NCBI RefSeq assembly: GCF_000143145.1
Contig: NC_014313.1
Location: 1,178,001-1,242,000, forward strand
DNA length: 64,000 nucleotides
Reading direction: 5' to 3'
Origin: Hyphomicrobium denitrificans ATCC 51888
Lineage (GTDB): Bacteria; Pseudomonadota; Alphaproteobacteria; Rhizobiales; Hyphomicrobiaceae
A program made the position numbers and the translations under genes. How positions within the stretch are numbered: position 1 is the stretch's first letter; each line of letters opens with the position of its first letter. The notes under the pieces are model-generated. The model did no database searches, was not told where the DNA came from, and worked only from the letters and a program-made list of their open reading frames with translations. Shown one piece after another: positions 36,079-54,025 of this stretch.

Positions 36079-37383
36079 ATGATAAGCGAATATCTTTTTC
36101 AACGAAATGGCGTTTGGCATTTCCGTCGTCGCGTCCCCGCTGACGTGAGTTCGCTTGATCGTCGACGCGAGATCTGGCGATCGACGAAAACTGACAACTT
36201 TGCAACGGCGATTATTGTCGCCACAAAGGTGAACGACGAGCTCGAGGCGTTTTGGTGCGCGCTTCGTGATGGCAAGGGCCGACCTGGTGCGGCTCTGGAT
36301 CCAGGCAAGGAATTTGAGAGGTCCGTCCGCATGGCGCGGACGCTTGGTGTATCGTACCGCGCCGTCAACGAGCTTGCGGAAGGCGACTTATCGGAAATCG
36401 TTCGTCGGGTCGCGCTGCTTGAGGAAAAGAATTTGACCGACTCGCCGCCGGCTGCAGCCGCGGTTCTAGGCGCAGCAAAGAAACCATCGATTTTGATTTC
36501 GCAGCTGTTCGAAAAATTCGAGGAACATGGTCGCGACCGGCTGCGCGGAAAATCTGTCGATCAGGTGCGGAAATGGAAAAATCCGAGAATCCGCGCTGTC
36601 AATAATTTCGTTGAGGTCGTTGGTGACAAGACGCTCGAGTCGATATCGCGCGACGACGGCCTCGATTTCCGCGCTTGGTGGCTCGATCGCGTCCTTGAGG
36701 AAGATTATGACCCAGGCAGCGCGAATAAGGACCTGGGGCATTTGAAAGCGATGTTCCAGGAACTCGATCTGGCTTGGCGGCTGAAGCTAGATAATCCGTT
36801 CGCGGGCCTGCGCGTTTCGGGAGAGAAGCACAACAAGCGCACTGCATATTCTGCGAAGTTTGTTCGCGAGAACTTTCTCGCCGGCGATCGGCTGTCCAAT
36901 TTGAATGCGGAGGCTCGAGCCATAACCGTTATGGTCGCAATGACAGGCATGCGCCCGTCAGAGGTTGCCGCGCTGTCTGAGAATCGGGTCTTTCTGCAGG
37001 CGAACATTCCCTACGTGAGTATCAAGCCGGAAGCCCGGCAACTGAAAACCAGGCACAGCGAGAGAGATATGCCGCTCGTCGGCCTGGCGCTCGAGACAAT
37101 GAGAGAATTCAAAGCAGGTTTCCCGCGCTATCGCGATGCACCGGACACATTGAGCGCGACGGTCAACAAAGCATTATCAGAGTCAGGACTACGGCCGACA
37201 CCGGAATATACACTCTACTCTCTGCGGCACACGTTCAAGGATCGGCTAATCGCTCTCGAGGCACCACAGCGCGTGCAGGATGCGCTTATGGGACACGCTG
37301 TTCGCGAGGTTGAATATGGTAGTGGGCCGTCTTTAGAACAGCGCGCGACCTGGATTGCGCGCGTTTGGGGCGCTGCGGTCTGA
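36079..37383 (+). CDS. int: Tyrosine-type site-specific integrase
   Basis: 434-residue phage integrase. The N-terminus (YLFQRNGVWHFRRRVPADV) is the short arm-binding-like domain common in alphaproteobacterial prophages, followed by a SAM-like core-binding domain (about 125-245) and the catalytic domain. Catalytic residues visible: Arg292 in MTGMRPSEVAAL, Arg383 in YSLRHTF (the usual HxxR His is replaced by Tyr380, as in relatives), His406 in LMGHAV and the nucleophile Tyr413 in VEYGSG. It catalyses insertion and excision of the prophage and sits at its left end behind three direct repeats. Convergent with the leftward early operon. Confidence 0.92.
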   Translation: MISEYLFQRNGVWHFRRRVPADVSSLDRRREIWRSTKTDNFATAIIVATKVNDELEAFWCALRDGKGRPGAALDPGKEFERSVRMARTLGVSYRAVNELAEGDLSEIVRRVALLEEKNLTDSPPAAAAVLGAAKKPSILISQLFEKFEEHGRDRLRGKSVDQVRKWKNPRIRAVNNFVEVVGDKTLESISRDDGLDFRAWWLDRVLEEDYDPGSANKDLGHLKAMFQELDLAWRLKLDNPFAGLRVSGEKHNKRTAYSAKFVRENFLAGDRLSNLNAEARAITVMVAMTGMRPSEVAALSENRVFLQANIPYVSIKPEARQLKTRHSERDMPLVGLALETMREFKAGFPRYRDAPDTLSATVNKALSESGLRPTPEYTLYSLRHTFKDRLIALEAPQRVQDALMGHAVREVEYGSGPSLEQRATWIARVWGAAV

Positions 37384-38150: not shown

Positions 38151-38372
38151 CTATCCTTCCTTTGTCGTAGATGCGGCGCGGTCGAGACGTTCGATTTCGG
38201 CGTATGCAGCGCGGGCCTTGCGGAGATCGCCAACGGTCAGTTTGGTGCCCGGAACTAGATTGTAGTCGTCTCGCTCGAATACCGGCCAAGCGAACATTTC
38301 CGCCGCGTCTGCAAACGGTTTTAGAGCGTCACGAATTGCCGCCGTCCTATCCATTGCTTCAGCTTCGCTCAT
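38151..38372 (-). CDS. Small hypothetical phage protein
   Basis: 73 residues, mostly helical (IRDALKPFADAAEMFA and LRKARAAYAEIERLDRA). Its ATG overlaps the stop of the preceding zinc-protein gene by four bases (ATGA), so translation is coupled. Such DALKPFA-type small helical proteins recur in alphaproteobacterial prophages, without a known function. Confidence 0.7.
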   Translation of the reverse strand: MSEAEAMDRTAAIRDALKPFADAAEMFAWPVFERDDYNLVPGTKLTVGDLRKARAAYAEIERLDRAASTTKEG

Positions 38373-38620
38373 TTTGTCCTCACTCGCTCATTCCAACTCG
38401 AATGAAGCGTTTCCTTGAAACCAAAGACGACAGCCGTTGAAACGTGACATTGCGTGCAGGATATGCAGGAGCCGCCGAAGTTATCGGGTTCGACTTCCTC
38501 ATCTTGAAAATCAATGCGCTCTGCCGTCCCGCCGCAGAATGGGCACGGTAAAAGTTCGCCGGGTTCTAGGGTGTCGAGCGCGTCCAACCGCGCTAACATT
38601 TTATCGTCAGCTTCGCTCAT
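38369..38620 (-). CDS. Lar-like zinc-binding protein (restriction-alleviation-like)
   Basis: 83 residues. Two CxxC knuckles, LLPCPFCGGTAERI and SCTQCHVSTAV, followed by a terminal SSWNERV, match the small Lar-family layout (CPFCGG ... CxxC ... W-N-x-R). Lar of phage Rac alleviates host type I restriction; whether this protein does so is unproven. ATG 38620 is chosen over the longer frame because it has GAGGACAAA upstream and overlaps the previous stop (ATGA). It lies in the early operon, the expected time for anti-restriction. Confidence 0.75.
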   Translation of the reverse strand: MSEADDKMLARLDALDTLEPGELLPCPFCGGTAERIDFQDEEVEPDNFGGSCISCTQCHVSTAVVFGFKETLHSSWNERVRTK

Positions 38621-38835
38621 TTTGTCCTCGTATCTGATGCGGCAAGGATGACATTCAACGCGTTCGTCCAGGGACAATTGAGGTTCGAATGCTCCCCAAC
38701 ATCACTACCGAAATAATCGGCTATGGCGTGCGCAAGCTCGTCGGCCGCGTTTTCAGCGCGGTCGCGTTCATCGATAAGCTGCGAACAATCTCGGCACGTA
38801 TCCGCCGTCCGTTCTGGCGCTGCTGTGTCTGTCAT
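38617..38835 (-). CDS. Small hypothetical phage protein
   Basis: 72 residues with a heptad-like acidic helix (CSQLIDERDRAENAADELAH) and two Cys near the N-terminus (TCRDC). Coupled by 4-base overlaps at both ends. No known family; the short segment DERDRAENAADELA is a pattern frequent in tiny phage early proteins. Confidence 0.65.
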   Translation of the reverse strand: MTDTAAPERTADTCRDCSQLIDERDRAENAADELAHAIADYFGSDVGEHSNLNCPWTNALNVILAASDTRTK

Positions 38836-40236: not shown

Positions 40237-40451
40237 CGTCCCTCACTATCAGACAAAGCGGCGCGGCCTTTGTCGGTGATTTCGAACTCGTCGCTGCCGT
40301 GGACGTAACGGCGCATCAGCCCTTCTTCACAAAGTCGCTGCGCCATAGCTCGACGTGACCGGCGTGCGTAACCGCATGTGTTGAACAGCTTTGCGACGCC
40401 AAGATAGTTTGAGGCCGCTTCGCTTAGGAATTTGCGGTGCGCCGGGGACAT
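40233..40451 (-). CDS. Small winged-helix-like phage protein
   Basis: 72 residues whose layout (SRRAMAQRLCEEGLMRRYVH followed by FEITDKGRAAL) resembles a minimal winged helix with a terminal wing, as in small DNA-binding regulators. DNA binding is an inference only. Coupled to the next gene by overlap. Confidence 0.62.
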   Translation of the reverse strand: MSPAHRKFLSEAASNYLGVAKLFNTCGYARRSRRAMAQRLCEEGLMRRYVHGSDEFEITDKGRAALSDSEGR

Positions 40452-40651
40452 TAAATTGCTTGCTCCTGCTGCAGCAGAGCACGCGCTCTTGACCGGGCGT
40501 CGCTTGATGCGCGCCTGGCCTTGAGTTCGTCCTCGATGCGCACAAATAGCGGGACATAGTCACCGCCCCCATTGCTGGCGACGAGCTTCGCTAGGACCCG
40601 AAGCGTTTGCTCGAGCTCTTGCGTGCTGACCTGGTCGCCGCGCTGGGTCAT
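40451..40651 (-). CDS. Small hypothetical phage protein
   Basis: 66 residues, predicted two helices (VSTQELEQTLRVLAKLVASN and LFVRIEDELKARRASS) joined by a Gly-rich turn. It shares one base with the following gene and overlaps the preceding gene by four. No family recognised. Confidence 0.62.
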   Translation of the reverse strand: MTQRGDQVSTQELEQTLRVLAKLVASNGGGDYVPLFVRIEDELKARRASSDARSRARALLQQEQAI

Positions 40652-40812
40652 TTTGCGGGCTCAGATCCCGATGCCGCAGAGAAATAATCGCAAGAGTGTG
40701 CGGTATCGTGCACCTGGTCGTCGATTTCGCACTTGATTTTTCCGGCAAGTGGAGCGCCTCGAGCGTCGAGCTCGAGGAATGCGCTATTGCAATGTTTGCA
40801 GCGAGGCTTCAC
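40648..40812 (-). CDS. 54-residue zinc-knuckle phage protein, GTG start
   Basis: Very short gene supported by structure: a strong ribosome site (GGGGAGGA) before the GTG at 40812, a 4-base GTGA overlap with the upstream HNH-like gene, and an ATGA overlap with the downstream gene. The product starts KPRCKHCNSAFLELD, a CxxC knuckle, with two later cysteines (KCEIDD, HSCDY) that could complete a zinc site. Function unknown. Confidence 0.65.
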   Translation of the reverse strand: MKPRCKHCNSAFLELDARGAPLAGKIKCEIDDQVHDTAHSCDYFSAASGSEPAK

Positions 40813-41285
40813 GATTGGTCCTCCCCGCGATTTTGGCGAAGAAGCCCTTTATGAGTCAGGATAATGCGAGCCATGGCGGATGCGTTAGGGCTCGCCGACC
40901 AGAGAGCCGCCGCGATTTCTATCGGTTCAGCGATGCCTTGGTCTCGAAACCATTTCGGCTCGGTTCGTGCCGTTCTGCCGTCGATTTCGACGCCGTTGAT
41001 ATGATGGTTGTGACAGAGAGGCAGCAGCCAGCGGTCGGTTGCTTTCCTGCCGACAGATCGTTCTCTCGCAGCTGGACCGTGTTTTAAATGATGCGGCTCA
41101 ACGCCGACGACAGTGCAGCCAGGAATGAGGCACGGTAGTTTGCAAATCGCAGCTTTGTGCGCGTCGCTATTTCCCGTCCGGCTTTCTCGCCGTTTTTTTG
41201 GCGCGGCGCGCTTTGTTTTTTCCTTTTGGACTTGGCTCGGTTTAAAGTTTCCATAGACGTGCGGGCGGAAAATTTGCTGCGCCAT
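40809..41285 (-). CDS. HNH-like zinc nuclease-type phage protein
   Basis: 158 residues: a basic N-terminus (KEKTKRAAPKKRRESR), then CKLPCLIPGCTVVGVEPHHL and GRKATDRWLLPLCHNHHING. The Cys pair plus the EPHHLK ... LCHNHH arrangement is that of HNH-type endonucleases or Ref-like recombination nucleases of phages. A role in DNA processing or recombination is likely. Starts two bases after the stop of the first gene in the leftward operon. Confidence 0.75.
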   Translation of the reverse strand: MAQQIFRPHVYGNFKPSQVQKEKTKRAAPKKRRESRTGNSDAHKAAICKLPCLIPGCTVVGVEPHHLKHGPAARERSVGRKATDRWLLPLCHNHHINGVEIDGRTARTEPKWFRDQGIAEPIEIAAALWSASPNASAMARIILTHKGLLRQNRGEDQS

Positions 41286-41287
41286 TG

Positions 41288-41764
41288 CTATTCCTCACTG
41301 TCGCTACTTTCGCCGGCGGCGCAGAACTGAGATCCAATTCGGCGAAACTCCACCTTGCCATTCGGGAACGCCTCGACGAGTGCGCGCACTGCCGGCTGGC
41401 GCAGCATGTCCTCGGCCTCGCTATCGGAAATGATTGTATCGTCGCTCGCCGGTCCGAACCGTTTGACGCGCTGCAGAACCTTGATGACTAGGCGTATGCC
41501 CTCGGCGTATTGGGCTAGAAAGGCGAGCGAGGCATGTGCCGCTCGGATATCGCGGATCTTTTTGTCGGCCGTCTCTGGCTTATAGCGGCCTTTCTGAACC
41601 CATTCGGGATAGAGCCGCTCGCGTTGGCGGATTTCTCTCGCAACCTCGTCGCGCTGATCTTCGATCGTCGGTCTGGGCAGCGTTGCTGCAGAGGACATAG
41701 AGGCGCCGACCTCTGGATCCGCTGCAGCAACATCGGCGTGCCCCACTGCCGCGACCGCGTTCAT
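41288..41764 (-). CDS. First gene of the leftward early operon, hypothetical
   Basis: 158 residues. The central helix has EVAREIRQRERLYPEWVQKG followed by TADKKIRDIRAAHASLAFLA, a segment often seen in small phage early proteins; the rest is unassigned. ATG 41764 is selected because GAGG lies just upstream and because the longer frame (to 41929) would run into the promoter region. It lies about 210 bases downstream of the leftward operator-promoter. Confidence 0.68.
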   Translation of the reverse strand: MNAVAAVGHADVAAADPEVGASMSSAATLPRPTIEDQRDEVAREIRQRERLYPEWVQKGRYKPETADKKIRDIRAAHASLAFLAQYAEGIRLVIKVLQRVKRFGPASDDTIISDSEAEDMLRQPAVRALVEAFPNGKVEFRRIGSQFCAAGESSDSEE

Positions 41765-41971
41765 TAGCAGGCCTCGCCTGAAGCAGTGACGGCGAGCGAC
41801 CAAGATGGAGGTTCCGGCGCTCGCCGCCGAATGCCGTCGAGAGCGTCCGGGAGAAGACGGGAATCCCTCTCTGATAGCTCGGCGGCAAAAAATTCGGGCC
41901 GAGCCGGTGCTTTTAACCGTGAAGTGCACATCGGCCGCCCCCGAAGCAAATCAATCGCAATGAGGGTGCAG

Positions 41972-41998
41972 CGTCGGATATTTCCGACGACATGTCAA
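41972..41998 (-). promoter_or_regulatory. Leftward early promoter with repressor operator (OL-like)
   Basis: On the minus strand a consensus -35 TTGACA (41998-41993) is followed three bases later by the palindrome CGTCGGA-N4-TCCGACG (41989-41972), which would sit between -35 and -10. The predicted -10 position is not a good match, so the promoter itself is less certain than the operator. The same palindrome occurs at 42723-42740. A further half-site lies within ATCGTCCGACGAT at 42001-42013. Confidence 0.7.
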
Positions 41999-42035
41999 CT
42001 ATCGTCCGACGATCAAAATCGAATTATGGCAGAAA

Positions 42036-42656
42036 TCAGGGTCGACGCAGTGGCAAATATTGGTGGTGGACTACGCCAACGACTTCGAATCGGAATTCGT
42101 TGTCGGGATCGTTGAGCGCCATAATCTCATTGGGGCCGCTGCTTGTGGTGGCTAGGAAATCTGGCGGAATGAATTCTCGAAGAACGGTTGCGTATGGATC
42201 TGGGTGTGCCCGGTCATAGACATATGCGATGATGATATCTCCTCGGGCTAGCTGCCGGGAGGATGGTTCGTCCATGTTTACGATGAGGATCTCGCCAGGA
42301 AGAATCCGCTTGGGATGGCTCTTGTCGAGGACATTCGTCAGTACTCGAAAGGGGGCCATGTTTGCGGACATATGCGCGAATTCGGCCACGTCGACGACGG
42401 GCTCCACGTCGCTAGCGCGACCCGATGGGCGCGGAAAATTTGCGAAACTGACCCCGAGCCTGTGAGGCGGAATTTTTAATTCTGTAGCAAGTCTGATCTT
42501 GAGGTCGACCGGCATCGCTTTGGGTGAACCGCGCTCTAGATAATCATGCAAATATCCGCGCTTCTTTCCCAAGCGCTTAGAGAGGTCCGCGAGCTCAAGA
42601 TCGAGTTCTCGCGCGCGTTCCTTAATCAACTCTTTGATAGCGTTCGAATCTTGCAT
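42036..42656 (-). CDS. Phage repressor (CI/LexA-like layout)
   Basis: 206 residues. The N-terminus has a helix-turn-helix of the XRE/CI kind (LELADLSKRLGKKRGYLHDY); the C-terminal half follows the LexA/S24 fold (RILPGEILIVNMDE, LARGDIIIAYVYD, VVGVVHHQYL). The usual catalytic Lys position reads Arg (ATVLREF) and the nucleophile Ser is not in a DSM context, so self-cleavage is doubtful. It diverges from a Cro-like gene with a perfect palindrome between them, and the same palindrome lies beyond its own 3' end in the leftward promoter, as expected for the lysogeny repressor. Confidence 0.85.
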   Translation of the reverse strand: MQDSNAIKELIKERARELDLELADLSKRLGKKRGYLHDYLERGSPKAMPVDLKIRLATELKIPPHRLGVSFANFPRPSGRASDVEPVVDVAEFAHMSANMAPFRVLTNVLDKSHPKRILPGEILIVNMDEPSSRQLARGDIIIAYVYDRAHPDPYATVLREFIPPDFLATTSSGPNEIMALNDPDNEFRFEVVGVVHHQYLPLRRP

Positions 42657-42716
42657 GCTGGAACGCTACCCGTCGGTTAACGAAAAGACACTCGTTTTGG
42701 TTTCCGATCAATGGGG

Positions 42717-42745
42717 TTGACGCGTCGGAAGAATCCGACGATAAG
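42717..42745 (+). promoter_or_regulatory. Rightward early promoter with repressor operator (OR-like)
   Basis: -35 TTGACG (42717-42722), a 17-bp spacer and -10 GATAAG (42740-42745). The 18-bp palindrome CGTCGGA-N4-TCCGACG (42723-42740) fills the spacer exactly, so a bound repressor would block polymerase. The ATG of the Cro-like gene follows only eight bases after the -10, implying a leaderless or nearly leaderless mRNA. A lone CGTCGG half-site is at 42671-42676. Confidence 0.8.
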
Positions 42746-42753
42746 TTTTCCCC

Positions 42754-43005
42754 ATGACTCACAGCCTCGCCGATGACTTCAAAGATCGCATCAACGGATT
42801 CCTCGAGCGGACAGGCATGTCGCCGTCTGCATTCGGAAGGCAGGCCGTGAACGACGGTTCTTTCGTCGCCGACCTTAATTCGGGCGAGCGAGAGTTCCGG
42901 CTCTCTACGATCGAGAAAGTCGACAAGTTTATCGCGGACTTTGACGCTGATTTAGCGCACGCCGCGACCGTACCGCACGACGTTCAAAGAAATTGTTTAA
43001 CGTAG
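42754..43005 (+). CDS. Cro-like small regulator
   Basis: 83 residues with one HTH-like segment (ERTGMSPSAFGRQAVNDGSF, then LSTIEKVDKFI). First gene of the rightward operon and divergent from the repressor, the position of Cro. There is no Shine-Dalgarno sequence and the -10 hexamer ends eight bases upstream, so it is probably translated from a leaderless transcript. Cro function is inferred from position and fold-like pattern. Confidence 0.75.
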   Translation: MTHSLADDFKDRINGFLERTGMSPSAFGRQAVNDGSFVADLNSGEREFRLSTIEKVDKFIADFDADLAHAATVPHDVQRNCLT

Positions 43006-43019
43006 GTTCGAGGGTGGGA

Positions 43020-43913
43020 ATGGTCCTCGATTTGCTATCGCCAGCCGTCATTGTCACTGCGAGCACAACACTCGCAGCGACGTCAGCATGGCGCTGGGTC
43101 GTTGACTGGCGGCAAGCGCGCATTCTTGGGATATCGATCTACGATTTTCGGCACGGAGCGGAACGAAGGCGTAGGACATTGTCGCGAGTCCGCGCGCGCG
43201 TCCGCCGCGAGTCCTCGATCCGAGTCCCGGCCCAATCGGCATTGATCCGGGACGAGTACCACGGTCGGGCCTCGGTGCAGTCGGCCGAGGGACCTGGGTC
43301 ATTGTCGAGGTCTGATGAAGGGCCTGCGGCGGCGGAGACTACGCAAAACGAGCCAGAAAACAGGCCTTTGGCAGAGTCCCAGGTAACGAGTCCTGATATG
43401 GTTTCCGCCGATAACGTGCGGCTGCTGATGGTCCCGCGCGATCAAATCAACGAATTTCTCGCTTTCGAGATCGCGCATGCCGTAGGAGCGAGCCTCAAGC
43501 GATCGGCTACCGATTGGGTTTCCGCGTATCGGCATTGGGCTTCTGTGCATGCGGTAGGCGCAATGCCAGAAAGCATATTTCTCAATCTGCTCGGAAACGC
43601 GCCGGGGATTCGAAAAACGCGGGAGAGGAGGAAGGATCCTCGCTCAGGACGGGTTCTCAAGAATTCCGCTGGAACGCCGCTACGCGATTACTTCTATGCG
43701 CTTGGCGATATCGACGACGGCGCATCGAAGAAGCCGAAAGGCAAGCGAGAGACGAAGGCAGAGCGGAGTGCACGCGAAGCCGCTCAGATGGCCGAACGAA
43801 GGCGTCTCGCAGAGGCCATGCCACAACTCACATGGGCCGAATACCTCGCCTCTATGTCCGTCGAAGATCGAGAGAAATTTGATTTGCAACATCGGCCACT
43901 AAAAGCGGCCTGA
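43020..43913 (+). CDS. Hypothetical phage protein with disordered basic middle
   Basis: 297 residues from ATG 43020 (GAGGGTGGG upstream). The N-terminus has a hydrophobic stretch (LLSPAVIVTASTTLAATSAW), then a CcrM/GcrA-like spaced basic region rich in Arg and Ser. A C-terminal helical half follows (LLMVPRDQINEFLAFEIAHA, TDWVSAYRHWASVH), then a Lys/Glu/Arg-rich tail (AERSAREAAQMAERRRLAEA). No firm family. Located between cro and the replication initiator, where phages place replication or antitermination factors. Confidence 0.65.
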   Translation: MVLDLLSPAVIVTASTTLAATSAWRWVVDWRQARILGISIYDFRHGAERRRRTLSRVRARVRRESSIRVPAQSALIRDEYHGRASVQSAEGPGSLSRSDEGPAAAETTQNEPENRPLAESQVTSPDMVSADNVRLLMVPRDQINEFLAFEIAHAVGASLKRSATDWVSAYRHWASVHAVGAMPESIFLNLLGNAPGIRKTRERRKDPRSGRVLKNSAGTPLRDYFYALGDIDDGASKKPKGKRETKAERSAREAAQMAERRRLAEAMPQLTWAEYLASMSVEDREKFDLQHRPLKAA

Positions 43914-44152
43914 GCTTTTTGCGTCCGAGGGAAGTTGCGTTTGTAGCGTGGCGTAACGGTTGCTGATCTCCGGGGGGAGCTTCATCGGCATCGCGTCAGT
44001 CATCTGCCGCCGGTAGCGGTTTCGCGTGTTCGAGCCGTTGCCGGCGTGCAGTGTGTGCGGCGTTGAGTTTCCAACAGAGTACGAAATGCAATCGCGGAAT
44101 AGCGCCAGCTTTTCCGCGCGAGGTTTGTCGCGAAATTTTGAGGGGATTTTCC

Positions 44153-44977
44153 TTGTCCGTCGAGGCGCTCGCCTACGTGAAAATGCTTGAGCTTGGAGAG
44201 CGCGAGAGTACCGCGACGCGTTTCGTTATGTACGTGCTCGGCGAAAACACGTTCAATGACAGTTTTCGCTGCCGTCTCAGTCAAGATCAGATTGCTTTCG
44301 AGGCTGGGCGCATGTCTGTGCGCACGCTTCGGCGGCACCTAGATACGCTTTCAGGTATTGAGCGCGCTGCTGACGGCTCGCAGAGCGTCGTAGAGCCTGT
44401 TTTCATCAAGCGTCATCCTCAATTCGATAGCACTGGCGCTCGGATCGAGGATGCGATCGAGATTGTCGGTTTTGACGTCTGGTATCTTGACCGTACGCGG
44501 AACCGAAAGGGTCGTTCAAAAAATGACTCACAACCGGACAAAATGTCCGGGGGGGCAGACTCAACTACCACCGGACAAAATGACCTGGGGGGTCGGCCAG
44601 ATTGTCCGGGGGCACCGGACACAGCTTTGTCCGGGGGCACCGGACAACAGGAGTCCGGGCATATAGAAGACCGTACTAAGAACCGTACAAGTGAAGATGC
44701 GCGTCTAAGCGCGCGAGAAGATTCAATTTCTGCTTTTGAAGTGAAGGTTAGCCAAGCTCTGCGAGCCGAGCTCGGGGAGAAGGTTTTCGAGTCGTGGTTT
44801 TCGAAGGTCAGATTTGAAACGACCGGCGACATTGTTCGCGTGCAAGCGCCGCTGCCATTCGTCTGCAATTGGATCCGGCAGCACTACGGCGACCTCGTTC
44901 GCCGCGTCTGTCAGGCGATCCAGTCCAACATAACCAGCGTCGATTTCATCGCACAAACACAGGGGGCGACACGATGA
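44153..44977 (+). CDS. Phage replication initiator-like protein (wHTH plus DnaA-N-like domain)
   Basis: 274 residues from TTG 44153, chosen because GAGGGG lies seven bases upstream; a GTG at 44051 is the alternative. The N-terminal part (VKMLELGERESTATRFVMYV, then LSQDQIAFEAGRMSVRTLRR) is a winged-helix domain typical of phage O-like initiators. A Gly/Pro/Asp-rich linker follows, encoded by repeated CCGGACA sequences. The C-terminal ~80 residues (GEKVFESWFSKVRFE, APLPFVCNWIRQHYGDLV) resemble the helicase-loading N-terminal domain of DnaA. Binding of origin repeats by one end and helicase recruitment by the other is the inferred role. Confidence 0.8.
   Translation: MSVEALAYVKMLELGERESTATRFVMYVLGENTFNDSFRCRLSQDQIAFEAGRMSVRTLRRHLDTLSGIERAADGSQSVVEPVFIKRHPQFDSTGARIEDAIEIVGFDVWYLDRTRNRKGRSKNDSQPDKMSGGADSTTTGQNDLGGRPDCPGAPDTALSGGTGQQESGHIEDRTKNRTSEDARLSAREDSISAFEVKVSQALRAELGEKVFESWFSKVRFETTGDIVRVQAPLPFVCNWIRQHYGDLVRRVCQAIQSNITSVDFIAQTQGATR
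44534..44658. repeat. Iteron-like CCGGACA repeats (candidate phage origin)
   Basis: Seven exact copies of CCGGACA (in either orientation) plus one 6/7 copy in 125 bp: starts 44534(+), 44544(-), 44571(+), 44603(-), 44615(+), 44628(-), 44640(+), 44652(-, imperfect). The first two form the palindrome CCGGACA-AAA-TGTCCGG; the last five are spaced 12-13 bp apart. They lie inside the initiator gene in its linker-coding part, as lambda ori lies inside gene O. Confidence 0.7.
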
Positions 44978-45381
44978 GCGCCGTTGCGCACGCGATCGAC
45001 CGTGAATCGATCGCCGATCAGGATCCTCGGAATGCGGTCCTCGGAATGCTTAGAACCATGCTCGAGAGCGCGATCGCGTTCGCGAAAAGCCAGGACTGCG
45101 AGCCGCAACTGTTGGCAATCGTCAAAGGCCTGCTTCCCGACCTCGTCCCGCCACCCGCGGCCGACTTGTTCGGCGAACCGTTCGGCAAAGCGCTGCCGGA
45201 TCTCGTTTCTCGCGCAGCTGCGGCCGACGACAAGCTCACCGATCTATTTCTCACGATGGTTCGCAATGCGCCAGCGCGCCTCACACAGCGCCGTCTGACG
45301 GCTGCTGAGCACGAAGCACACAAAGCCCTAGCCGAGCTCGCAAACGTCCTGCTCGAGCTCCGTAAGCAAACGAGGAAGTAG
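44974..45381 (+). CDS. Hypothetical phage protein
   Basis: 135 residues, helical and acidic (NAVLGMLRTMLESAIAFAKS, LTAAEHEAHKALAELANVLL). The ATG overlaps the initiator's stop by four bases, so it is co-translated with it and could be a replication partner such as a helicase loader, but no P-loop is present. Longer frame to 44869 rejected because it overlaps the initiator. Family unknown. Confidence 0.68.
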   Translation: MSAVAHAIDRESIADQDPRNAVLGMLRTMLESAIAFAKSQDCEPQLLAIVKGLLPDLVPPPAADLFGEPFGKALPDLVSRAAAADDKLTDLFLTMVRNAPARLTQRRLTAAEHEAHKALAELANVLLELRKQTRK

Positions 45382-45534
45382 ATGGACGTTACATATCCGA
45401 CCACACAGACGAACGTTTCACGCATCCGCTCGCTCAGGCAGCGCGGCTGGTCAGATCGCGGCATTGCTCGACAGCTTCTGCTGCCGTTGTCGCTTGTGCG
45501 GAAAATTATCGCCGATCTCGAGGTGTCACGATGA
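45382..45534 (+). CDS. 50-residue HTH-like phage protein
   Basis: Starts at the base after the previous stop and overlaps the next ATG by four bases (ATGA), so it fits the operon exactly. The sequence RIRSLRQRGWSDRGIARQL followed by LPLSLVRKIIADLE reads like a minimal helix-turn-helix, as in resolvase or DUF-type small regulators. Function unknown. Confidence 0.6.
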   Translation: MDVTYPTTQTNVSRIRSLRQRGWSDRGIARQLLLPLSLVRKIIADLEVSR

Positions 45535-46298
45535 AAGCAGTTGCAATCAAAGCCTCGAAAAAAGCTCTCGGTAAAGACAAGGCTAAAAAGCCGAAAGCCA
45601 TGCCGAAAAATCATCGCGCAGTCATGGCCTCGCGTCGGGAGCCGCCAGACTCGCTCGAGTTTTTCCCCACAGGCCCGTGGGCGACCAGGGCGTTTTGCGT
45701 ACACGTCCTGATGAACCATTGCGGCATCGATCTTTCGACGAAAAAATATTGGGAGCCGGCTGCAGGCGAAGGTCATATGCATGAAGTGCTCGGCGAATTT
45801 TTCGCTGAGGGGTACGCATCCGATGTGTTCGATTACGGTCGAGGCTACGCGCAAGGGGCGTTCGTTGTCGAGAAAACAGGCCTAGTCGACGATTTGGCGC
45901 GGTGCCCGTTTCGGCCTCACTGGATCGTGACGAACCCGCCTTTCAGTTTAGCGGAACAATTTGTCATTCGCGCGCTGCAGGAAGCGACCGAAGGCGTGGC
46001 GATTGTCATGCCGATGCGCTGGCTCGAGGGTATCGGGCGTTACGAAAACATTTTCAGCGTCATTCCGCCGACGCTAATCGCGATCTCCGTTGAACGCATT
46101 CCCATGCATAAGGGCGTCTGGCTGCCCGACGGCGATACCGCAACCAGCTATATCTGGTTTGTCTGGGAAAAGCGCCGCGGCGGCCGGACCGATACGATTT
46201 GGATTCCGCCGGGACAGCGCAACAGCCTCGAGCATCCAGACGATCGCAGACGCTTTGGCCCTCCGGTGGGCGCCGATATGTTTCAGGAGGCGCCATGA
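45531..46298 (+). CDS. Putative N6-adenine DNA methyltransferase (NPPF type)
   Basis: 255 residues. After a Lys-rich N-terminus (KKALGKDKAKKPKAMPKNHR) the SAM-binding motif I reads YWEPAAGEGHMHE and the catalytic motif IV reads WIVTNPPFSLAEQF; motif order I then IV and the terminal ~100 residues fit the phage N4-gp/adenine methyltransferase families. It would methylate phage DNA, protecting it or marking it. No cognate restriction gene of standard type is adjacent, though a small PD-(D/E)XK nuclease follows directly with an ATGA overlap. Confidence 0.8.
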   Translation: MKAVAIKASKKALGKDKAKKPKAMPKNHRAVMASRREPPDSLEFFPTGPWATRAFCVHVLMNHCGIDLSTKKYWEPAAGEGHMHEVLGEFFAEGYASDVFDYGRGYAQGAFVVEKTGLVDDLARCPFRPHWIVTNPPFSLAEQFVIRALQEATEGVAIVMPMRWLEGIGRYENIFSVIPPTLIAISVERIPMHKGVWLPDGDTATSYIWFVWEKRRGGRTDTIWIPPGQRNSLEHPDDRRRFGPPVGADMFQEAP

Positions 46299-46648
46299 CA
46301 CTGCTCATGCGCGAAATTATGGTGGCGCTGACCGGCAAGCGCTTCCCGCTCGAGGATGAGAAGGCGACGCAGTCCGCTATCTGGGACGTGTTTCGTTTTC
46401 AGACGGTGTACGGCGCATCGCGTGAGGTTCGCGTCGCGGGCGGAATTATCGACTTCCTGATTGATGATGTTGGCATCGAGGTAAAAATAAAAGGTCAGGC
46501 CGCATCGATTATGCGCCAGCTGAGAGCCTATGCCGACGAGCCAGCAATCTCTGGTCTAATTCTCGTAACGTCGAAGCCGGTCGCTCTTGGTCCGACGATA
46601 GGCGGGAAACCGGTCGCCGTATTCGACATGGCGAGGGCGTGGCTGTGA
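46295..46648 (+). CDS. Small PD-(D/E)XK nuclease-like protein
   Basis: 117 residues from ATG 46295 (CAGGAGG just upstream). The core GGIIDFLIDDVGIEVKIKG has Asp, then Glu-x-Lys, the signature of the PD-(D/E)XK nuclease fold, preceded by the helix EDEKATQSAIWDVF carrying the usual first Glu and followed by a QLRAYADE helix. Size is like VRR-NUC or minimal phage nucleases. It sits between a DNA methyltransferase and a SNF2 helicase with coupled reading frames, suggesting a nuclease-helicase functional unit in phage recombination or replication. Confidence 0.75.
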   Translation: MTLLMREIMVALTGKRFPLEDEKATQSAIWDVFRFQTVYGASREVRVAGGIIDFLIDDVGIEVKIKGQAASIMRQLRAYADEPAISGLILVTSKPVALGPTIGGKPVAVFDMARAWL

Positions 46649-48399
46649 AAACGCTCCTTGATCATCAGCGGACCTATGGTGCGATCGAGCACGACGGGAA
46701 TGCTTGGAAAATTACCGAGCTCGAGCCGCACGTCGCGATCATGCTCAAGGCGAATTTCCCGCGCATCCCTAAGACGGCTAAGCCGCCGTTCACGATTTCC
46801 GGGGGCGCGCACGTCGACGCGACGCTTGCCTGGTTTCTCTTGCGCTTTCCACTCCGGATTTCTGACGCCGATAAGACTCGGATGGACGAGCAGAAAACGC
46901 TTTTTGAAGTCGGGCAGAAAGAGCTCGGAGCAATTCTTGCGCCGGGCTGGATGCCTTCAAAAATAGTCGGTTTCAAAGGCAATCAGCGGCCTTGGAACTA
47001 TCAGAGCGCCGCTGCTGAGCTTGCGCGTCGCACTGGCCGCTTGCTGCTTATGGACGAGCTTGGCCTTGGAAAGACAGTCTCGGCCATAGCGGCAATTGTA
47101 GCTCCGGATTATCTGCCGGCTATGGTGGTTCCGCAGACCCACTTGCCTGAACAATGGGCAATCGAAATCGGTGAATTCACGACGCTGACGACGCATATCA
47201 TCAAGCGCACGAAGCCCTATGAATTACCGCGCGCCGACGTCTACATTAATCCTTATTCGAAGCTCGCGGGCTGGATCGACTATGCCCCCACGGCTGGTTT
47301 CAAGTCGATCGTGTTCGACGAGATTCAAGAACTTCGCAACGGCATCGAAACGTCAAAAGGCATTTCCGCAAAACGGTTCTGTGAGCAGGCAAGCCTAATC
47401 ATCGGCTTGTCGGGAACGCCAATTTATAATTACGCCTCAGAAACCTGGCAAATCTGCAATTTTCTTGAGGAAGGCGTTCTCGGGACTTTCGACGAATTTA
47501 AAACCGAATGGTGCGAAATGGGTCCGGGCGGCAAGTGGATCGTCACCGATCCCCAGGCGCTCGGTACGCACCTGCGCGAGATCCACCTGTCCTTGCGCCG
47601 GACGCGGGCGGATATTGGCGACGAGCGGCGATATCCGAACAAGATCATTCACGAAATACCGTTCGATGCGCAATCGTTCGCCGCGGACGCCGGCGCAATC
47701 AGAGCTCTCGCGGAACGAGTGACGGCGACTGCACCACTCGCGCGTGGCGAAGCAGGTAACGCGGCGCGAGAATTTGATCTCAGGATGCGGCATGCGACCG
47801 GCGTCGCGAAAGCGCCACAGGTCGCAGCGTTCGTCAAAATTCTACTCGAGGCCCGGCAGCCCGTCGTGCTCTGCGGCTGGCACCGTGACGTTTATGAAAT
47901 TTGGGCACGCGAGCTCGCCGACTTCAATCCCGTTTTTTATACCGGCACTGAGACCCCGCGGCAGAAAAAGAAATCGGTTCAGATGTTCTGCGAAGGGCAT
48001 TCGAACCTTTTCATACTTTCGCTGCGTTCCGGAGCGGGGCTCAACGGGCTGCAGCATCGTTGCCGGACGATCGTATTCGGTGAGCTCGACTGGTCGCCGA
48101 AAGTCCATGAGCAATGCACGGGTCGGCTCGATCGACCCGGCCAGGAGCAGCAGGTCGACGAAATATATCTTCACGCGGATGGAGGTAGCGACCCGTCGAT
48201 GATTGGAGTCCTGGCGCTCAAGTCGTCCCAAAGTCAGGGCATCGTCGACCCGTTCAGCGCGCCTCGTGATCAGATCTCTGACGTCTCACGAATTCGAGAG
48301 CTCGCCGAACTCTATCTGCAGGGCAACAGCCATCTTGCGGCACCGGCTCCGAAGCCGAAACGAATGTCAGTTGCGTCTGAACAGAACAGTCTTTTTTGA
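46645..48399 (+). CDS. SNF2-family DNA helicase/translocase
   Basis: 584 residues. Motifs: Walker A LLMDELGLGKTVSA, motif Ia PQTHLPEQW, Walker B IVFDEIQEL (DEIQ variant), motif III GLSGTPIYN, and motif VI HEQCTGRLDRPGQEQQV. These define a superfamily 2, SNF2-type ATPase that moves along duplex DNA. The N-terminal ~110 residues are a HARP/SMARCAL1-like accessory region. Coupled GTG start overlaps the nuclease stop (a GTG two codons earlier is possible). Phages use such proteins in replication fork remodelling or recombination. Confidence 0.9.
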   Translation: MKTLLDHQRTYGAIEHDGNAWKITELEPHVAIMLKANFPRIPKTAKPPFTISGGAHVDATLAWFLLRFPLRISDADKTRMDEQKTLFEVGQKELGAILAPGWMPSKIVGFKGNQRPWNYQSAAAELARRTGRLLLMDELGLGKTVSAIAAIVAPDYLPAMVVPQTHLPEQWAIEIGEFTTLTTHIIKRTKPYELPRADVYINPYSKLAGWIDYAPTAGFKSIVFDEIQELRNGIETSKGISAKRFCEQASLIIGLSGTPIYNYASETWQICNFLEEGVLGTFDEFKTEWCEMGPGGKWIVTDPQALGTHLREIHLSLRRTRADIGDERRYPNKIIHEIPFDAQSFAADAGAIRALAERVTATAPLARGEAGNAAREFDLRMRHATGVAKAPQVAAFVKILLEARQPVVLCGWHRDVYEIWARELADFNPVFYTGTETPRQKKKSVQMFCEGHSNLFILSLRSGAGLNGLQHRCRTIVFGELDWSPKVHEQCTGRLDRPGQEQQVDEIYLHADGGSDPSMIGVLALKSSQSQGIVDPFSAPRDQISDVSRIRELAELYLQGNSHLAAPAPKPKRMSVASEQNSLF

Positions 48400-48409
48400 G
48401 GGGGAATAA

Positions 48410-48637
48410 ATGCACATCAGCCAAGTTAAACCTGGTGACACGCTCATAGCGGACGATGGTTTCTCGTGTCTCGACCCCGATCAGCGCGTCACCGTCCATT
48501 CCGACGATTGCGGACTGTTCGTGCCCTGTCGTTGTGGCCAGCACTATCTCGACGGTCAGCTGAATGCTGTCGGTGATCTTGTCGGCCTTTATCCGCCGGT
48601 AGAATTCAAAACCATTCAAACGGGGGCGAGCACATGA
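48410..48637 (+). CDS. Small hypothetical phage protein
   Basis: 75 residues, acidic beta-rich (VKPGDTLIADDGFSC), with CRCGQHYLDGQL containing a CxC pair. Strong site GAGGGGGAATAA before the ATG. Many tailed phages carry a similar short protein after the helicase; function unknown. Confidence 0.7.
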   Translation: MHISQVKPGDTLIADDGFSCLDPDQRVTVHSDDCGLFVPCRCGQHYLDGQLNAVGDLVGLYPPVEFKTIQTGAST

Positions 48638-49158
48638 CGCCAGAACAACGCGCAAATTTTGTCGCGAACGTTACTGATGCTGAGCAGCGCCGGTCCGCGG
48701 AAAAGCTTTGGCAGGCTGCGCACGTTGCCGAGGTCGCGCTCACGCAGGCCTGCGTGTCGCGTGGTATCGCAGCAGTGCGGCCTGGCGAAGATAGGACGGA
48801 GGAAGATCGCGAAGCGGAGATTAACGCAGCCGTCGCCGCAGACCCCGATCTGAAGGCTCTGCATGCTGCAGCCGAACAAGCGTTGCAGCCGTGGCTCACC
48901 TGTACAGAGTACGGTGAGCCTCTTGAAAGTTATGATGGTGAAATAATTCGCTGCGTGCTGACTGGTTTTCTCGTCCATGAGAACGATAAATATCTAATCG
49001 ATCTCGGTACGCACGAATGCGTGTTGAAATCTGCGCTCGGTGTCCCGCTCGGCTTTATTCTGGGTGATTTTCTATCGGATGACGCGCCGCCGATCGCGAT
49101 CGGCGACGACGCGCTCTCGGTAGCGCAAGCCGTTGCGCAGGATCGCGTCAATGTCTGA
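48634..49158 (+). CDS. Hypothetical phage protein
   Basis: 174 residues. N-terminal helical half (TDAEQRRSAEKLWQAAHVAE) with an acidic loop, C-terminal beta-like half (EIIRCVLTGFLVHENDKYL). No recognised domain. Overlaps its neighbours by four and eight bases, so it belongs to the same coupled series as the helicase and the GapR-like gene. Confidence 0.68.
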   Translation: MTPEQRANFVANVTDAEQRRSAEKLWQAAHVAEVALTQACVSRGIAAVRPGEDRTEEDREAEINAAVAADPDLKALHAAAEQALQPWLTCTEYGEPLESYDGEIIRCVLTGFLVHENDKYLIDLGTHECVLKSALGVPLGFILGDFLSDDAPPIAIGDDALSVAQAVAQDRVNV

Positions 49159-49537
49159 TGAGCCAGAAATCCTCGGCGGCAATCAGAGCGCGGATCTGAA
49201 CAGCCGGGCCGATCAAATTATCGCCGTTATGGATGAGATCGATGACGCGAAGGTCCGTCTCGCCGACATAAAGGCTAACGCAAAGGCCAGCGGTTACGAT
49301 CTTAAAGCGCTTAGCCAAGTCGTAAAGGAAAAGCGCAAAGGCGCTGGGTTCCAAGCTCAGCAGCTTGAGCTCGAAATGGTCCTCGACAGCTACCGCAAGG
49401 CTGTCGGCAATGCGACTGACCTCGAGAAAGCGCAGGAACGCGCTCGCCGGGAAGCCTCCGAGGATCCCGACGAGAAGAAAGCCAAACGCAAGAAATCGAG
49501 CAAGGTCGTTCAGTTCCCCGGCGGCAAACCGAACTGA
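49151..49537 (+). CDS. GapR-like DNA-binding protein (DUF2312)
   Basis: 128 residues. The segment NSRADQIIAVMDEIDDAKVR, then ADIKANAKASGYDLKALSQV and VKEKRKG, matches the DUF2312 helical core of GapR, the nucleoid protein of alphaproteobacteria that clamps overtwisted DNA and supports topoisomerases during replication. The C-terminus is Lys/Arg-rich with KKAKRKKSSKVVQFPGG, longer than in chromosomal GapR. A phage copy amid replication genes suggests a role in phage DNA topology or competition with host GapR. ATG 49151 overlaps the previous stop. Confidence 0.82.
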   Translation: MSDEPEILGGNQSADLNSRADQIIAVMDEIDDAKVRLADIKANAKASGYDLKALSQVVKEKRKGAGFQAQQLELEMVLDSYRKAVGNATDLEKAQERARREASEDPDEKKAKRKKSSKVVQFPGGKPN

Positions 49538-49546
49538 GGTCGCGCC

Positions 49547-49882
49547 ATGAGCCTAGATCCTATCTTGGCCGAGTGCGAGCTCGAGCCGTCTATTGCCGAG
49601 ATTGTTAGCGCCGAACGCGCTGCCATATCTTCGTTAGAAAAGCTGCGGCGCGGCCCGGTGTTGATCGATAGCGGCAACTCGCGCTCGATCTGGCTGCGGA
49701 CTGCGGTCGAGCCGCCGCTCGATCTCGATATCGAACTGCTGCTCGGCCGCCGTTGGGGCGTCGAGGTCGTTTATCTCGGCTGGGCCTCGCGCCGTTTTCT
49801 TAACGGTGCGCTTACATTCTGGGTTTGGCACAACGGTCGCTCTCGTCTCGTCCGGCCGAAGGGATGGAGGGCCTCGGCGTGA
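49547..49882 (+). CDS. Hypothetical phage protein
   Basis: 111 residues, no recognised domain. Helical start (LEPSIAEIVSAERAAISSLE), then a beta-like half (LLGRRWGVEVVYLGWASRRF, TFWVWHNGRSRLV). Nine bases after the GapR-like gene, and its stop shares a base with the next start (TGATG), so it is in the same coupled series. Confidence 0.65.
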   Translation: MSLDPILAECELEPSIAEIVSAERAAISSLEKLRRGPVLIDSGNSRSIWLRTAVEPPLDLDIELLLGRRWGVEVVYLGWASRRFLNGALTFWVWHNGRSRLVRPKGWRASA

Positions 49883-51036
49883 TGCTTTCGCCGCCATTTC
49901 CAGAACGGACGGGCGATGTTATCCGTCATCGCGAGTGGATCAGGCAGCTGCAGGCGCCGATGCCTGAGCGCGTCGGAGACGCAATTCGCGAGCGCAGACG
50001 AGTTCGCCGCGAAAGATTGCTCGCAAAGATTGCCGAAAGGGCAATTACTCTCGGTGTTCTTCGGCTGCGCCAGGTCAAGGGCCACGAATGGCGAGACTCG
50101 CGAATCCCGCCGCCGCGCAAACCTGCGCCGATCGAGGCGATTTCTGCTCCGGCGAAAAAGGAACCTCTCGAGGCCGAGCGCATGCCGATCGGCGCGCATC
50201 CTATCAAGAGCCTCGCAGAGGGCGCGATCGGCTTGCTCGCGCTTCCTACGCGCGATGTGCGTGGTTTTTGGCGTTGGCAAGCCTCAAGGGGATCGAAAAA
50301 TAAGCGCGTGTTTTACGAGCTAGCCGGCGGCAAGGAAATTCCGATTCCCTACCATGATCGTCCTAAATACTTTTTCCCTGCGCGCCCCCTCATTGCTGAA
50401 CCTGTGAAATTCGAACGTCCGCTCGCAATCGACGCCAGGCCGCCGGCGCAGGAAATGCCGGACGAGCTCATGCCGGCGAGTTCGGGAGAGTTGACAGAGG
50501 ACGAGGTCAGAAACCGGCTTTATTGGGCGATCAAGACGCTGCAGGCGTTGCGCGATCCCGAATGGAAATTCCTGACCGCCGGCAATCGCGTCAACTGGCC
50601 GACGACAGTCGCCGAATATGCCGACCTCGTCGCGCGTGATGAAAATCACGACAATAAAGATTCAGCGTTGCGTAAGTCCAAGTTCGAGCCGTCGCGCGCG
50701 CATCTGCGCGACATGGACGAGCCGCTCGAATGGTTTCTGGTTCTGAACCTGAAACCAGCAGAGCGCATGGCGCTCATTCGCAAGGGGAAGCTGCCGCTAT
50801 CACCTGAGCAGTGGCTCGTTTGGTGGCGGGCTCGCGACATTTCTTATTCGACCGTAGCAAAGCACATTGGGGGCAATAATGAAGCCGCACGACGCGGGAC
50901 AGACGCCGTCTTTAAACGGCTCACGGCAATTGCAAACGAGCCCGCAAGGGTTGAAGCCCGGCGGGTTCGTGCCACCGCCATCGATCCTCGAGCTCAAGCC
51001 GAAGGGAAATCAGAAATATTTGAAATCTGCGCGTGA
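49882..51036 (+). CDS. Phage regulatory/replication-associated protein
   Basis: 384 residues from ATG 49882, which is coupled to the preceding stop. The middle part is basic; the C-terminal half has YWAIKTLQALRDPEWKFLTA followed by NRVNWPTTVAEYADL, a motif shared with small phage proteins of the DUF6362 kind, and then WLVWWRARDISYSTVAKHI, an HTH-like segment. A DNA-related role is likely but undefined. The last ~50 codons overlap the next frame. Confidence 0.7.
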   Translation: MLSPPFPERTGDVIRHREWIRQLQAPMPERVGDAIRERRRVRRERLLAKIAERAITLGVLRLRQVKGHEWRDSRIPPPRKPAPIEAISAPAKKEPLEAERMPIGAHPIKSLAEGAIGLLALPTRDVRGFWRWQASRGSKNKRVFYELAGGKEIPIPYHDRPKYFFPARPLIAEPVKFERPLAIDARPPAQEMPDELMPASSGELTEDEVRNRLYWAIKTLQALRDPEWKFLTAGNRVNWPTTVAEYADLVARDENHDNKDSALRKSKFEPSRAHLRDMDEPLEWFLVLNLKPAERMALIRKGKLPLSPEQWLVWWRARDISYSTVAKHIGGNNEAARRGTDAVFKRLTAIANEPARVEARRVRATAIDPRAQAEGKSEIFEICA

Positions 51037-51412
51037 GGATCTCGAGGAAAGGCGCGACCTAACAGCGATTGTCGCGATCGGGCTCTGGCCGTCTGGACCC
51101 TGGCAGCTGTCGCTCACCGGAACGCAGCCGAACAAGGTTGCCAACGATGCAAGCAAGTGGGCCGGCCTCATGGCGATGACGCCGAGGCTCGGCGCGCTGA
51201 TCTTTGTCGAGGGTCGCGGGAAGGCTGAGCGGATCCGTCAGGCGGTCCTCGGCGATCAGCGAACGATCATCCTGGGAACTGCAGACGACGTGCAGGCGGC
51301 GCTCGAGGTCGCAGCAAAGCAGGAAAGCGTCACGTACTGGGATTGGCCGGCGCACGTCGAGCGTTTGGAAGGCCTCGCCGAGATCAAAGAGAAAGAGGAC
51401 ATGCGCCGATGA
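50879..51412 (+). CDS. Hypothetical phage protein overlapping its neighbour
   Basis: 177 residues if ATG 50879 is used (GGGGG upstream), giving a 158-base overlap with the preceding gene. A TTG at 51020 would give a shorter 130-residue form with almost no overlap. The part after 51020 (LTAIVAIGLWPSGPWQLSLT, MTPRLGALIFVEGRGKAERI) looks like the real domain; the upstream part is Pro/Gly-rich. Function unknown. Confidence 0.6.
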   Translation: MKPHDAGQTPSLNGSRQLQTSPQGLKPGGFVPPPSILELKPKGNQKYLKSAREDLEERRDLTAIVAIGLWPSGPWQLSLTGTQPNKVANDASKWAGLMAMTPRLGALIFVEGRGKAERIRQAVLGDQRTIILGTADDVQAALEVAAKQESVTYWDWPAHVERLEGLAEIKEKEDMRR

Positions 51413-51948
51413 GCTTTCACGGGGCCAACGACGACCAGCCGCTTTATCGGCCGCTGCGTTTCCGAGTCCTCTCGCAAGAGGAAAAGCTTGCGTTCAACAA
51501 CATGGCTCCCGGTGCCATTTGGCTAGCCGGTCCTCTGCGCGGCGCGATCCCGCGCGGATGGGGCGATAACCGCGGAGGTTGGCCGATCAAAATCAGCTGC
51601 ACTGCGTACTGGGGCATGCGTAAGGACGAAAAGCTCGAGGGCCGCGACGCGCTACCCTGGGATGACATGGATTTTATCGGCCGCTGGTGGTTCGACAGTT
51701 ACGACATGGCCGACCGCGTCCGCTGCGATCTGCTTAACGAACTCATGCGCCGGGAAATCTACGAGGACGCCAAAGGCGCATGGCTGTCGTTTGATCCAGA
51801 TTTCGGCCTCGATCTGATCGACGCGGAGATCCGGAGAATTTCGATCTCGAAAAAGTATGAAGTGCTTACCGATCGAGAGTTGCTGCGCAGTCTCACTTGG
51901 CAGTTGGAGCTTGCCCGCAAGGTATCTGAAACAATGGGTTTGACATGA
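51409..51948 (+). CDS. Hypothetical phage protein
   Basis: 179 residues, Trp-rich (WPIKISCTAYWGMRKDEKLE, MDFIGRWWFDSYDMADRVRC) with a helical C-terminus. No family recognised. Coupled by 4-base overlaps with both neighbours; lies directly before the Dam-type methylase. Confidence 0.66.
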   Translation: MSFHGANDDQPLYRPLRFRVLSQEEKLAFNNMAPGAIWLAGPLRGAIPRGWGDNRGGWPIKISCTAYWGMRKDEKLEGRDALPWDDMDFIGRWWFDSYDMADRVRCDLLNELMRREIYEDAKGAWLSFDPDFGLDLIDAEIRRISISKKYEVLTDRELLRSLTWQLELARKVSETMGLT

Positions 51949-52826: not shown

Positions 52827-52850
52827 AGTTTAACAACGGGGGACTTAGCA

Positions 52851-53255: not shown

Positions 53256-53258
53256 GCG

Positions 53259-53725: not shown

Positions 53726-53732
53726 GGCCGCC

Positions 53733-53948: not shown

Positions 53949-54025
53949 GTCGGGATATTGCTCGGCTTGGCAGGTTTATCTAAAACGAGATATGGGTATG
54001 GTGAGCAAATTGGGGGTGGTTTGGA

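Follow-up and report, generated by a model that had tools for sequence, protein, structure and literature searches.

A candidate replication origin was found within the coding sequence of a prophage initiator gene. The gene lies at 44153..44977 of the window, which is the whole 64,000-nt stretch analysed, and below it is called the window gene and its product the window protein. Codons of its interdomain linker contain an array of CCGGACA half-sites arranged as about five inverted repeats and adjoined by the least stable DNA of the gene. It is highly probable that these linker codons harbour the replication origin of the prophage, on the plan of lambda gene O.

The following prophage genes are found around the window gene.
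36079..37380, plus strand: prophage integrase (phrog_1, phrog_216).
42036..42656, minus strand: putative repressor of the prophage, oriented divergently to the early operon (weak match to phrog_8 transcriptional regulator, E 0.003).
46639..48399, plus strand: SNF2-type helicase of the early region (Pfam, PHROG).
Methyltransferases are also encoded in this region. Downstream, past the window end, there are genes for terminase, portal, protease, major head protein and tail sheath. Since the tail sheath is present, the prophage is of the myovirus type. The 44 prophage ORFs include one Lar restriction alleviation protein (PF14354) and one GapR-like DNA-binding domain (PF10073); the placement of Lar at 38369-38677 on the minus strand is a guess from its Cys-rich sequence. 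No sigma-70-like promoter was observed in 42600-45000, no structured RNA family in 43900-45600 (Rfam at gathering score), and no tRNA in the window. DnaA boxes were considered and rejected: TTATNCACA with at most one mismatch occurs 7 times in the window against 14.5 expected, and is absent from 40331-54288.

The window protein is predicted to consist of three parts.
44153..44977, plus strand: initiator gene with a TTG start, 274 aa, encoding a winged helix, a disordered linker and DnaA domain I (ORF, Pfam, AlphaFold2, Foldseek).
44153..44482, plus strand: codons of the winged-helix domain, the putative dyad binder (AlphaFold2 model, structural matches).
44714..44956, plus strand: codons of DnaA domain I, PF11638 (Pfam DnaA_N).
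A longer version of the ORF starts at an upstream GTG. An earlier reading of the sequence alone (below, the sequence-only reading) had proposed a protein with wHTH and DnaA-N-like ends and repeats in the linker-coding part. The C-terminal end indeed matches PF11638 at 46.5 bits with a cut-off of 24.6. The N-terminal winged helix is supported by the AlphaFold2 model, where residues 1-110 have pLDDT 83-91 by ten-residue block, and by wHTH chains among the Foldseek matches of this model. Pfam yields no HTH match for the window protein, and HTH_36 is found in distant relatives. The array encodes residues 128-169, which fall inside the stretch 125-189 modelled with pLDDT under 50, so that the repeats are placed in the predicted linker. 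AAA+ and domain IV, which a full DnaA initiator would have, were not found, PF11638 being the sole Pfam family in the 308-aa ORF. A PHROG search with the window protein gave no replication family at E up to 1, O-like families included; the replication-initiation and O-like families do match distant relatives, and a paralogue from the same genome (L006) matches phrog_678 at 4.3e-4.

The array and its sites are as follows (strand is not applicable).
44534..44658: eight half-sites of the type CCGGACA forming an array of alternating orientation; one of them carries a mismatch and the rest are exact (motif scan).
44534..44550: dyad site 1, CCGGACAAAATGTCCGG, both arms exact (dyad scan).
44571..44588: dyad site 2, CCGGACAAAATGACCTGG, exact left arm and imperfect right arm (by eye).
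44593..44609: dyad site 3, TCGGCCAGATTGTCCGG, imperfect left arm and exact right arm (by eye).
44615..44634: dyad site 4, CCGGACACAGCTTTGTCCGG, both arms exact (dyad scan).
44640..44658: dyad site 5, CCGGACAACAGGAGTCCGG, arms differing at one position.
The motif scan of the window bears out the eight elements, seven of them exact, that had been noted within 125 bp. Exact copies start at 44534(+), 44544(-), 44571(+), 44603(-), 44615(+), 44628(-) and 44640(+), and the eighth copy is AGTCCGG at 44652(-), with one mismatch to CCGGACA. Successive starts of the last five are separated by 12, 13, 12 and 12 bp, in agreement with the 12-13 bp given earlier. The repeats noted earlier as an iteron array stand, but their orientation was not stressed in the sequence-only reading. 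The half-sites alternate in orientation along 44534-44658, hence the natural units are dyads, and a set of about five dyad sites describes the array better than head-to-tail iterons. Between the centres of sites 2-5 the spacing is 21.5, 23.5 and 24.5 bp, and site 1 is 37.5 bp off. In a homologue from the same genus (L011), the counterpart of site 5 is exact.

Exact CCGGACA occurs 17 times in the window against 8.45 expected from dinucleotide shuffles, and 7 of these 17 copies are within the 125 bp. It is the only 7-mer of the window that reaches seven copies per 125 bp; the runners-up reach five. Full dyads CCGGACA(3-6)TGTCCGG occur twice in the window, both times inside the array, with the mean expectation of 0.00. 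Under the strict dyad count, the window gene scores two sites over the stretch scanned, which is no more than codon shuffles give (12 of 60). This count is low because one arm is degenerate in site 2 and likewise in site 3, and because site 5 is outside the scan.

Repeated DNA in a linker might simply reflect a repeated peptide, that is, a low-complexity Gly/Pro/Asp linker with codons alike by accident. Indeed, the linker is biased in composition and predicted at low confidence. However, when synonymous codons of the window gene were shuffled with the protein and the codon pool of the gene fixed, the number of CCGGACA copies in 44520-44670 averaged 1.23 with a maximum of 5, and none of the 20000 shuffles reached the observed 7. 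Moreover, the half-sites of the window gene use two codon phases. Since no shuffle reaches seven copies and the same word occurs in more than one phase, the array is kept at the DNA level and is not a by-product of the peptide.

A motif-free test, which scores the best 150 bp of a gene for repeated 8-mer pairs on either strand and compares the score with synonymous shuffles, was applied to two sets of genes. In the first set, no shuffle out of 400 was as repetitive in eight of nine genes (the window gene, L011, L048, L042, L044, L046, L047 and L008), and the paralogue L006 was weakly repetitive (13/400). L043, where the stop codon had been included, was left out of this set and tested in the second one. 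The latter comprised 18 initiators: lambda O as a positive control, L043, and 16 phages chosen for variety, with linkers unseen, from 133 records matching the L046 protein. Fourteen of the 18, lambda O among them, gave 0/500; the exceptions were Parlo (3), D173 (44), LASTA (77) and SI8 (186 of 500). None of the 19 neighbour genes used as a control gave 0/500, the lowest value being 3. The commonest word occurs in at least two phases on one strand in 6/9 genes of the first set and 8/18 of the second. In the remaining genes it keeps to one phase per strand, for example in L042, L046, S1249 and S137, which pass the motif-free test, and these single-phase relatives speak for a peptide repeat.

The conservation of the protein parts bears on the same question. 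In a ten-row protein alignment (A1), the mean pairwise identity is 0.33 for the linker, 0.54 for the wHTH, 0.41 for DnaA_N and 0.58 for the stretch after the array. The linker residues are thus the least conserved of the parts compared, which again argues against selection of a repeated peptide. Overall, a peptide repeat as the sole explanation is extremely improbable. For the window gene it is refuted by the synonymous shuffles and the motif-free test; chance or a codon by-product is ruled out by these and by the full-dyad count. The comparison of homologues suggested in the sequence-only reading therefore came out in favour of DNA repeats: the linker residues vary, whereas the DNA exceeds synonymous shuffles in repetitiveness in the 8/9 and 14/18 genes. 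The opposite result, with amino acids kept and DNA repeats lost, did not occur among the relatives examined, because the array persists in the linker while both the peptide and the repeat sequence change. The stretch just past the array (residues 170-190 in P0001) exceeds the other three parts in conservation, though it is linker-coding, and one possibility is that it serves as a recombination joint.

The repeat words found at the same place of the linker vary by lineage and include CCGGACA, CCGGCCA, CCGGCAA, TGTCCAC and others, and they often occur in two or three codon phases. Some related phages have a common word (LASTA and Pavtok; BZS1 and S137). Both near relatives with DNA available for reading have an array in the same linker, L011 clearly and L006 weakly. 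L011 contains four strict dyads with a pitch of 24, 24.5 and 24.5 bp (0/60 shuffles). Four ACCGGCA dyads with a pitch of 23, 24 and 24.5 bp (1/60 shuffles) were observed in L047, an IMG/VR sequence without DnaA_N. The paralogue L006 has three strict dyads with a pitch of 27 and 25.5 bp, L048 from a Hyphomicrobium MAG has CCGGCCA dyads with a pitch of 33, 34 and 25 bp plus one doubtful site, and L042 has TGTCCAC dyads with a pitch of 21 and 45.5 bp. The strict count finds two sites 23.5 bp apart in the lambda control, and one or none in 13 of 27 genes.

L006 comes from a second prophage of the same genome, where the paralogous initiator occupies C1:3099477-3100319 on the minus strand (L009 9477-10319) and contains a degenerate CCGGACA array. 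The integrase of this prophage is probably of the serine type (phrog_95 integrase, phrog_125 DNA invertase). A lone exact CCGGACA dyad (L003, C1:3097272-3097293) is situated about 2.2 kb from the paralogue, in an ORF of the second prophage matching DNA methyltransferase (L009 6037-7680).

The two ends of the protein seem to be inherited separately. DnaA_N is present in three of the eight relatives scanned (L046, L006, L008), and in L046 and L008 the repeats are quite different. There is no correlation between the wHTH and DnaA_N identities (r 0.03, 55 pairs, 11 initiators). P0003 shares 72% of the wHTH and 26% of DnaA_N with the window protein and keeps the CCGGACA-coding words, whereas P0006 shares 83% of DnaA_N and 33% of the wHTH and has no excess of such words in the linker; in this pair the comparison was made on protein words coding for CCGGACA, not on DNA. 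Thus the repeats appear to go with the winged helix, as would be expected if the wHTH reads them. In the accessible part of PMC10684548, two Gordonia phages are described whose initiators have near-identical C-ends and differing wHTH.

Next to the array there are two further features.
44660..44699, strand not applicable: least stable 40 bp of the gene, candidate unwinding element, adjoining the array (nearest-neighbour scan of the gene, without shuffle control).
44670..44688, plus strand: second element ACCGTAC(5)ACCGTAC, two exact copies 12 bp apart.
With at most two mismatches, the ACCGTAC pair occurs twice in the window against 0.05 expected, the other occurrence (two mismatches) being at 44490. 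A pair at the 12-bp pitch is present also in L011 and L047, and related pairs in two phases were found in L006 (11 bp) and L048 (13 bp). In a survey of 27 genes, with array ends set automatically and without shuffle control, the post-array stretch contains DNA that ranks among the least stable 2.2% of its gene in 15 cases and not in the others (0.70 for L043). As single-stranded DNA, 44520-44720 folds strongly (z -6.1); this was not used as evidence, as inverted repeats of any use give it.

Among the 256 tetramers, AACC ranks first for coding-strand pairs at 11-13 bp, occurring in 16/27 initiators, with GGTT in 1/27, and such AACC pairs were observed in 0/19 neighbour genes. In single genes these pairs are often reproduced by codon shuffles (lowest 11/500), and the 27 genes are partly related. 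The pair is absent in 11/27 genes, among them lambda, the window gene and L011; in the latter two, the first copy is GACC in place of AACC. The AACC tandem is kept as a lead. A tentative and rather doubtful generalization is that O-like phage origins have a two-part code: a changing array of dyads or repeats that follows the winged helix, and a near-constant strand-specific tandem of the AACC or ACCGTAC type with the 11-13 bp pitch in the unwinding region, perhaps read in single-stranded form by a factor of the host or at some conserved step. As the array and the tandem are both in linker codons, the origin in such a code might also be the joint at which DNA-binding and helicase-recruiting domains are swapped without origin loss.

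The proposed mechanism is as follows. About five CCGGACA dyads would be bound by the N-terminal winged helix, which probably acts as a dimer. The complex of the initiator with the dyads would strain and open the adjoining unstable 40 bp with the tandem ACCGTAC. The C-terminal DnaA domain I would then help to bring the host DnaB, or another domain-I partner, to the bubble. Binding of the dyads by the wHTH is very probable, and we have the same high confidence that the array region functions as an origin; unwinding at 44660-44699 is likely, with less certainty.

Dyads bound by a winged helix also have the look of operators, and the gene belongs to an early operon that has a repressor-like gene next to it. 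The protein could thus repress or time its own transcript from within the gene, the origin being elsewhere. On the other hand, no exact CCGGACA was found between 39467 and 44534, hence the 5 kb preceding the array are free of copies. Further, the same layout is seen in genes that match, or are named as, O-like replication initiation genes, and in the lambda origin (PMC5043065 and PMC3349717, in the portions available). We consider the operator function improbable.

Plasmid iterons act in partition, incompatibility and copy control. The array could similarly be a site for titration or handcuffing, with synthesis starting elsewhere; the accessible text of PMC3349717 describes inhibition of the phage by plasmid-borne lambda ori iterons in combination with oop transcription. 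However, the unstable DNA and the second tandem element beside the array rather fit strand opening, and none of the 13 Pfam families in the 44 prophage ORFs is of the parA/parB type. Such a role in place of an origin is as improbable as that of operators, and an origin in the array region is the preferred explanation.

The helicase step is less clear. The window family's DnaA_N domains group in a separate clade (support 100/99), distinct from the DnaA domains of 25 host loci (three more of the 28 tried were missed by the script), and so the window domain is not a recent copy of that of the host. Its identity with DnaA of its own host is 47% over 51 aa. In E. coli DnaA domain I, Glu21 and Phe46 touch DnaB (PMC5448010, accessible part). 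The residues at these positions are V and F in the window protein and I and F in the host DnaA. Of the nine other A1 rows, six lack Phe46 as read from the alignment (P0002, P0003, P0004, P0008, P0009, P0010), and conservation of a DnaB contact is thus not evident. Recruitment of the host DnaB by this domain is plausible, the chances being about even, and a domain-I partner other than DnaB is possible. The helicase-loading module proposed in the sequence-only reading is a guess, because the C-terminal part lacks AAA+ and consists of DnaA domain I only. As judged by Pfam at E 0.001, the 44 prophage ORFs (36079-63723) contain 13 families, none of them DnaB-, DnaC- or P-like.

We also searched for such genes by the repeats only. 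A DNA scan of IMG/VR with the pattern CCGGACA(3-6)TGTCCGG(2-20)CCGGACA yielded 68 stretches; in 67 of them an ORF of 100 aa or more spans the match, and these form 39 clusters. The cluster representatives match phrog_270 "replication initiation protein" in 12 cases, HTH_36 in nine and DnaA_N in one (E 0.001). The 27 clusters without phrog_270 include some that are clearly other genes (portal, head proteins) or have no listed family. A regular CCGGACA dyad array was observed in a 380-aa ORF of the IMG/VR sequence L077 (6316-6438), where it is read as CPETGQGVRKPDSG repeats. In L057 (11192-11506), a 105-aa ORF with one match to the dyad pattern encodes PDRTAGQDSRTGQ-type peptide repeats in tandem; this is probably a simple repeat, not an initiator.

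Protein searches retrieved few relatives. The window protein gave two stretches and no confirmed match in viral contigs, and no match at 1e-5 in phages. The A1 alignment gave 51 stretches with one confirmed (L008) in viral contigs, and 85 stretches with none confirmed in genome contigs. Among 150 relatives it matched 143 genomes, mostly through host DnaA, and therefore the wHTH alone (A2) was used in later searches. At 1e-5, A2 matched 5/397 and 2/385 genomes, the own genome being included in each. It gave 43 stretches in viral contigs with one confirmed (L047) and 67 in genome contigs with one confirmed (L048). The ACCGTAC pair pattern yielded six stretches in viral contigs, of which the sole initiator by reading is L052, on the contig of L047.

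If the proposed origin is real, phage proteins labelled "helix-turn-helix" or left unannotated would become predicted initiators, and the origin and its binding sequence could be read from such genes alone. The family would form a natural series with the recognition domain and the DNA site changing together, and a DnaA-related domain could make a separate helicase loader dispensable. With the second tandem element, the way in which such origins open could be tested directly.

The closest known system is the lambda origin. Inverted repeats within gene O are bound there by O dimers, and opening occurs in an A+T-rich region of 40 bp that comes after them (PMC5043065, PMC3349717, available text). 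The lambda repeats have a pitch of 20-24 bp (same sources and the accessible part of PMC7466680). The window gene likewise has inverted repeats, the putative initiator sites, inside the initiator gene and unstable DNA next to them; a comparable pitch is clear in L011 and L047. Lambda O also gives the same signature in the repeat and shuffle tests. The parallel with lambda ori drawn in the sequence-only reading is therefore close, given the 24-bp-pitch dyads of L011 and L047 and the unstable DNA beside the array. The repeat is unrelated, as was also stated there: the lambda arms are of the GAGGGAT type, as opposed to CCGGACA. Lambda has a separate P gene beside O, whereas the window protein has DnaA domain I at its C-end; P is a helicase loader that brings DnaB. 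The window protein has no sequence match to O-like PHROGs. Thus it most likely works like lambda O, and is not said to be a member of the lambda O family.

The families PHROG 270, 391, 678 and 1032 ("replication initiation", "O-like") resemble the window protein in the N-terminal wHTH and, in relatives, the repeat-bearing linker, but the window protein matches none of them. In repABC plasmids of Alphaproteobacteria, oriV similarly lies within the repC coding sequence and has an A+T-rich central region; the accessible text of PMC3155836 reports no iterons in repC, whereas the dyad array is the main feature of the window gene. The RP-C model of Pfam matches the relative L046 at 25.6 bits with a cut-off of 24.4. 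Bacterial DnaA, unlike the window protein, has the AAA+ module and domain IV. Phage proteins annotated with a DnaA N-terminal domain already exist, for example BFVD A0A6J5SN45 of an uncultured Caudovirales phage (structural match, E 0.018); internal repeats of phage genes with DnaA_N were examined here for L046 and L008. An origin inside the initiator gene has been suspected for repA of a mycobacterial prophage (PMC7157519, in the part available). In the literature within our scope, from which subscription papers were excluded, neither a phage initiator combining internal dyads with DnaA domain I nor the AACC tandem was found in the accessible texts. The principle of an origin within the initiator gene is already known, and what is new here is the lambda plan with another dyad and with DnaA domain I as the C-end.
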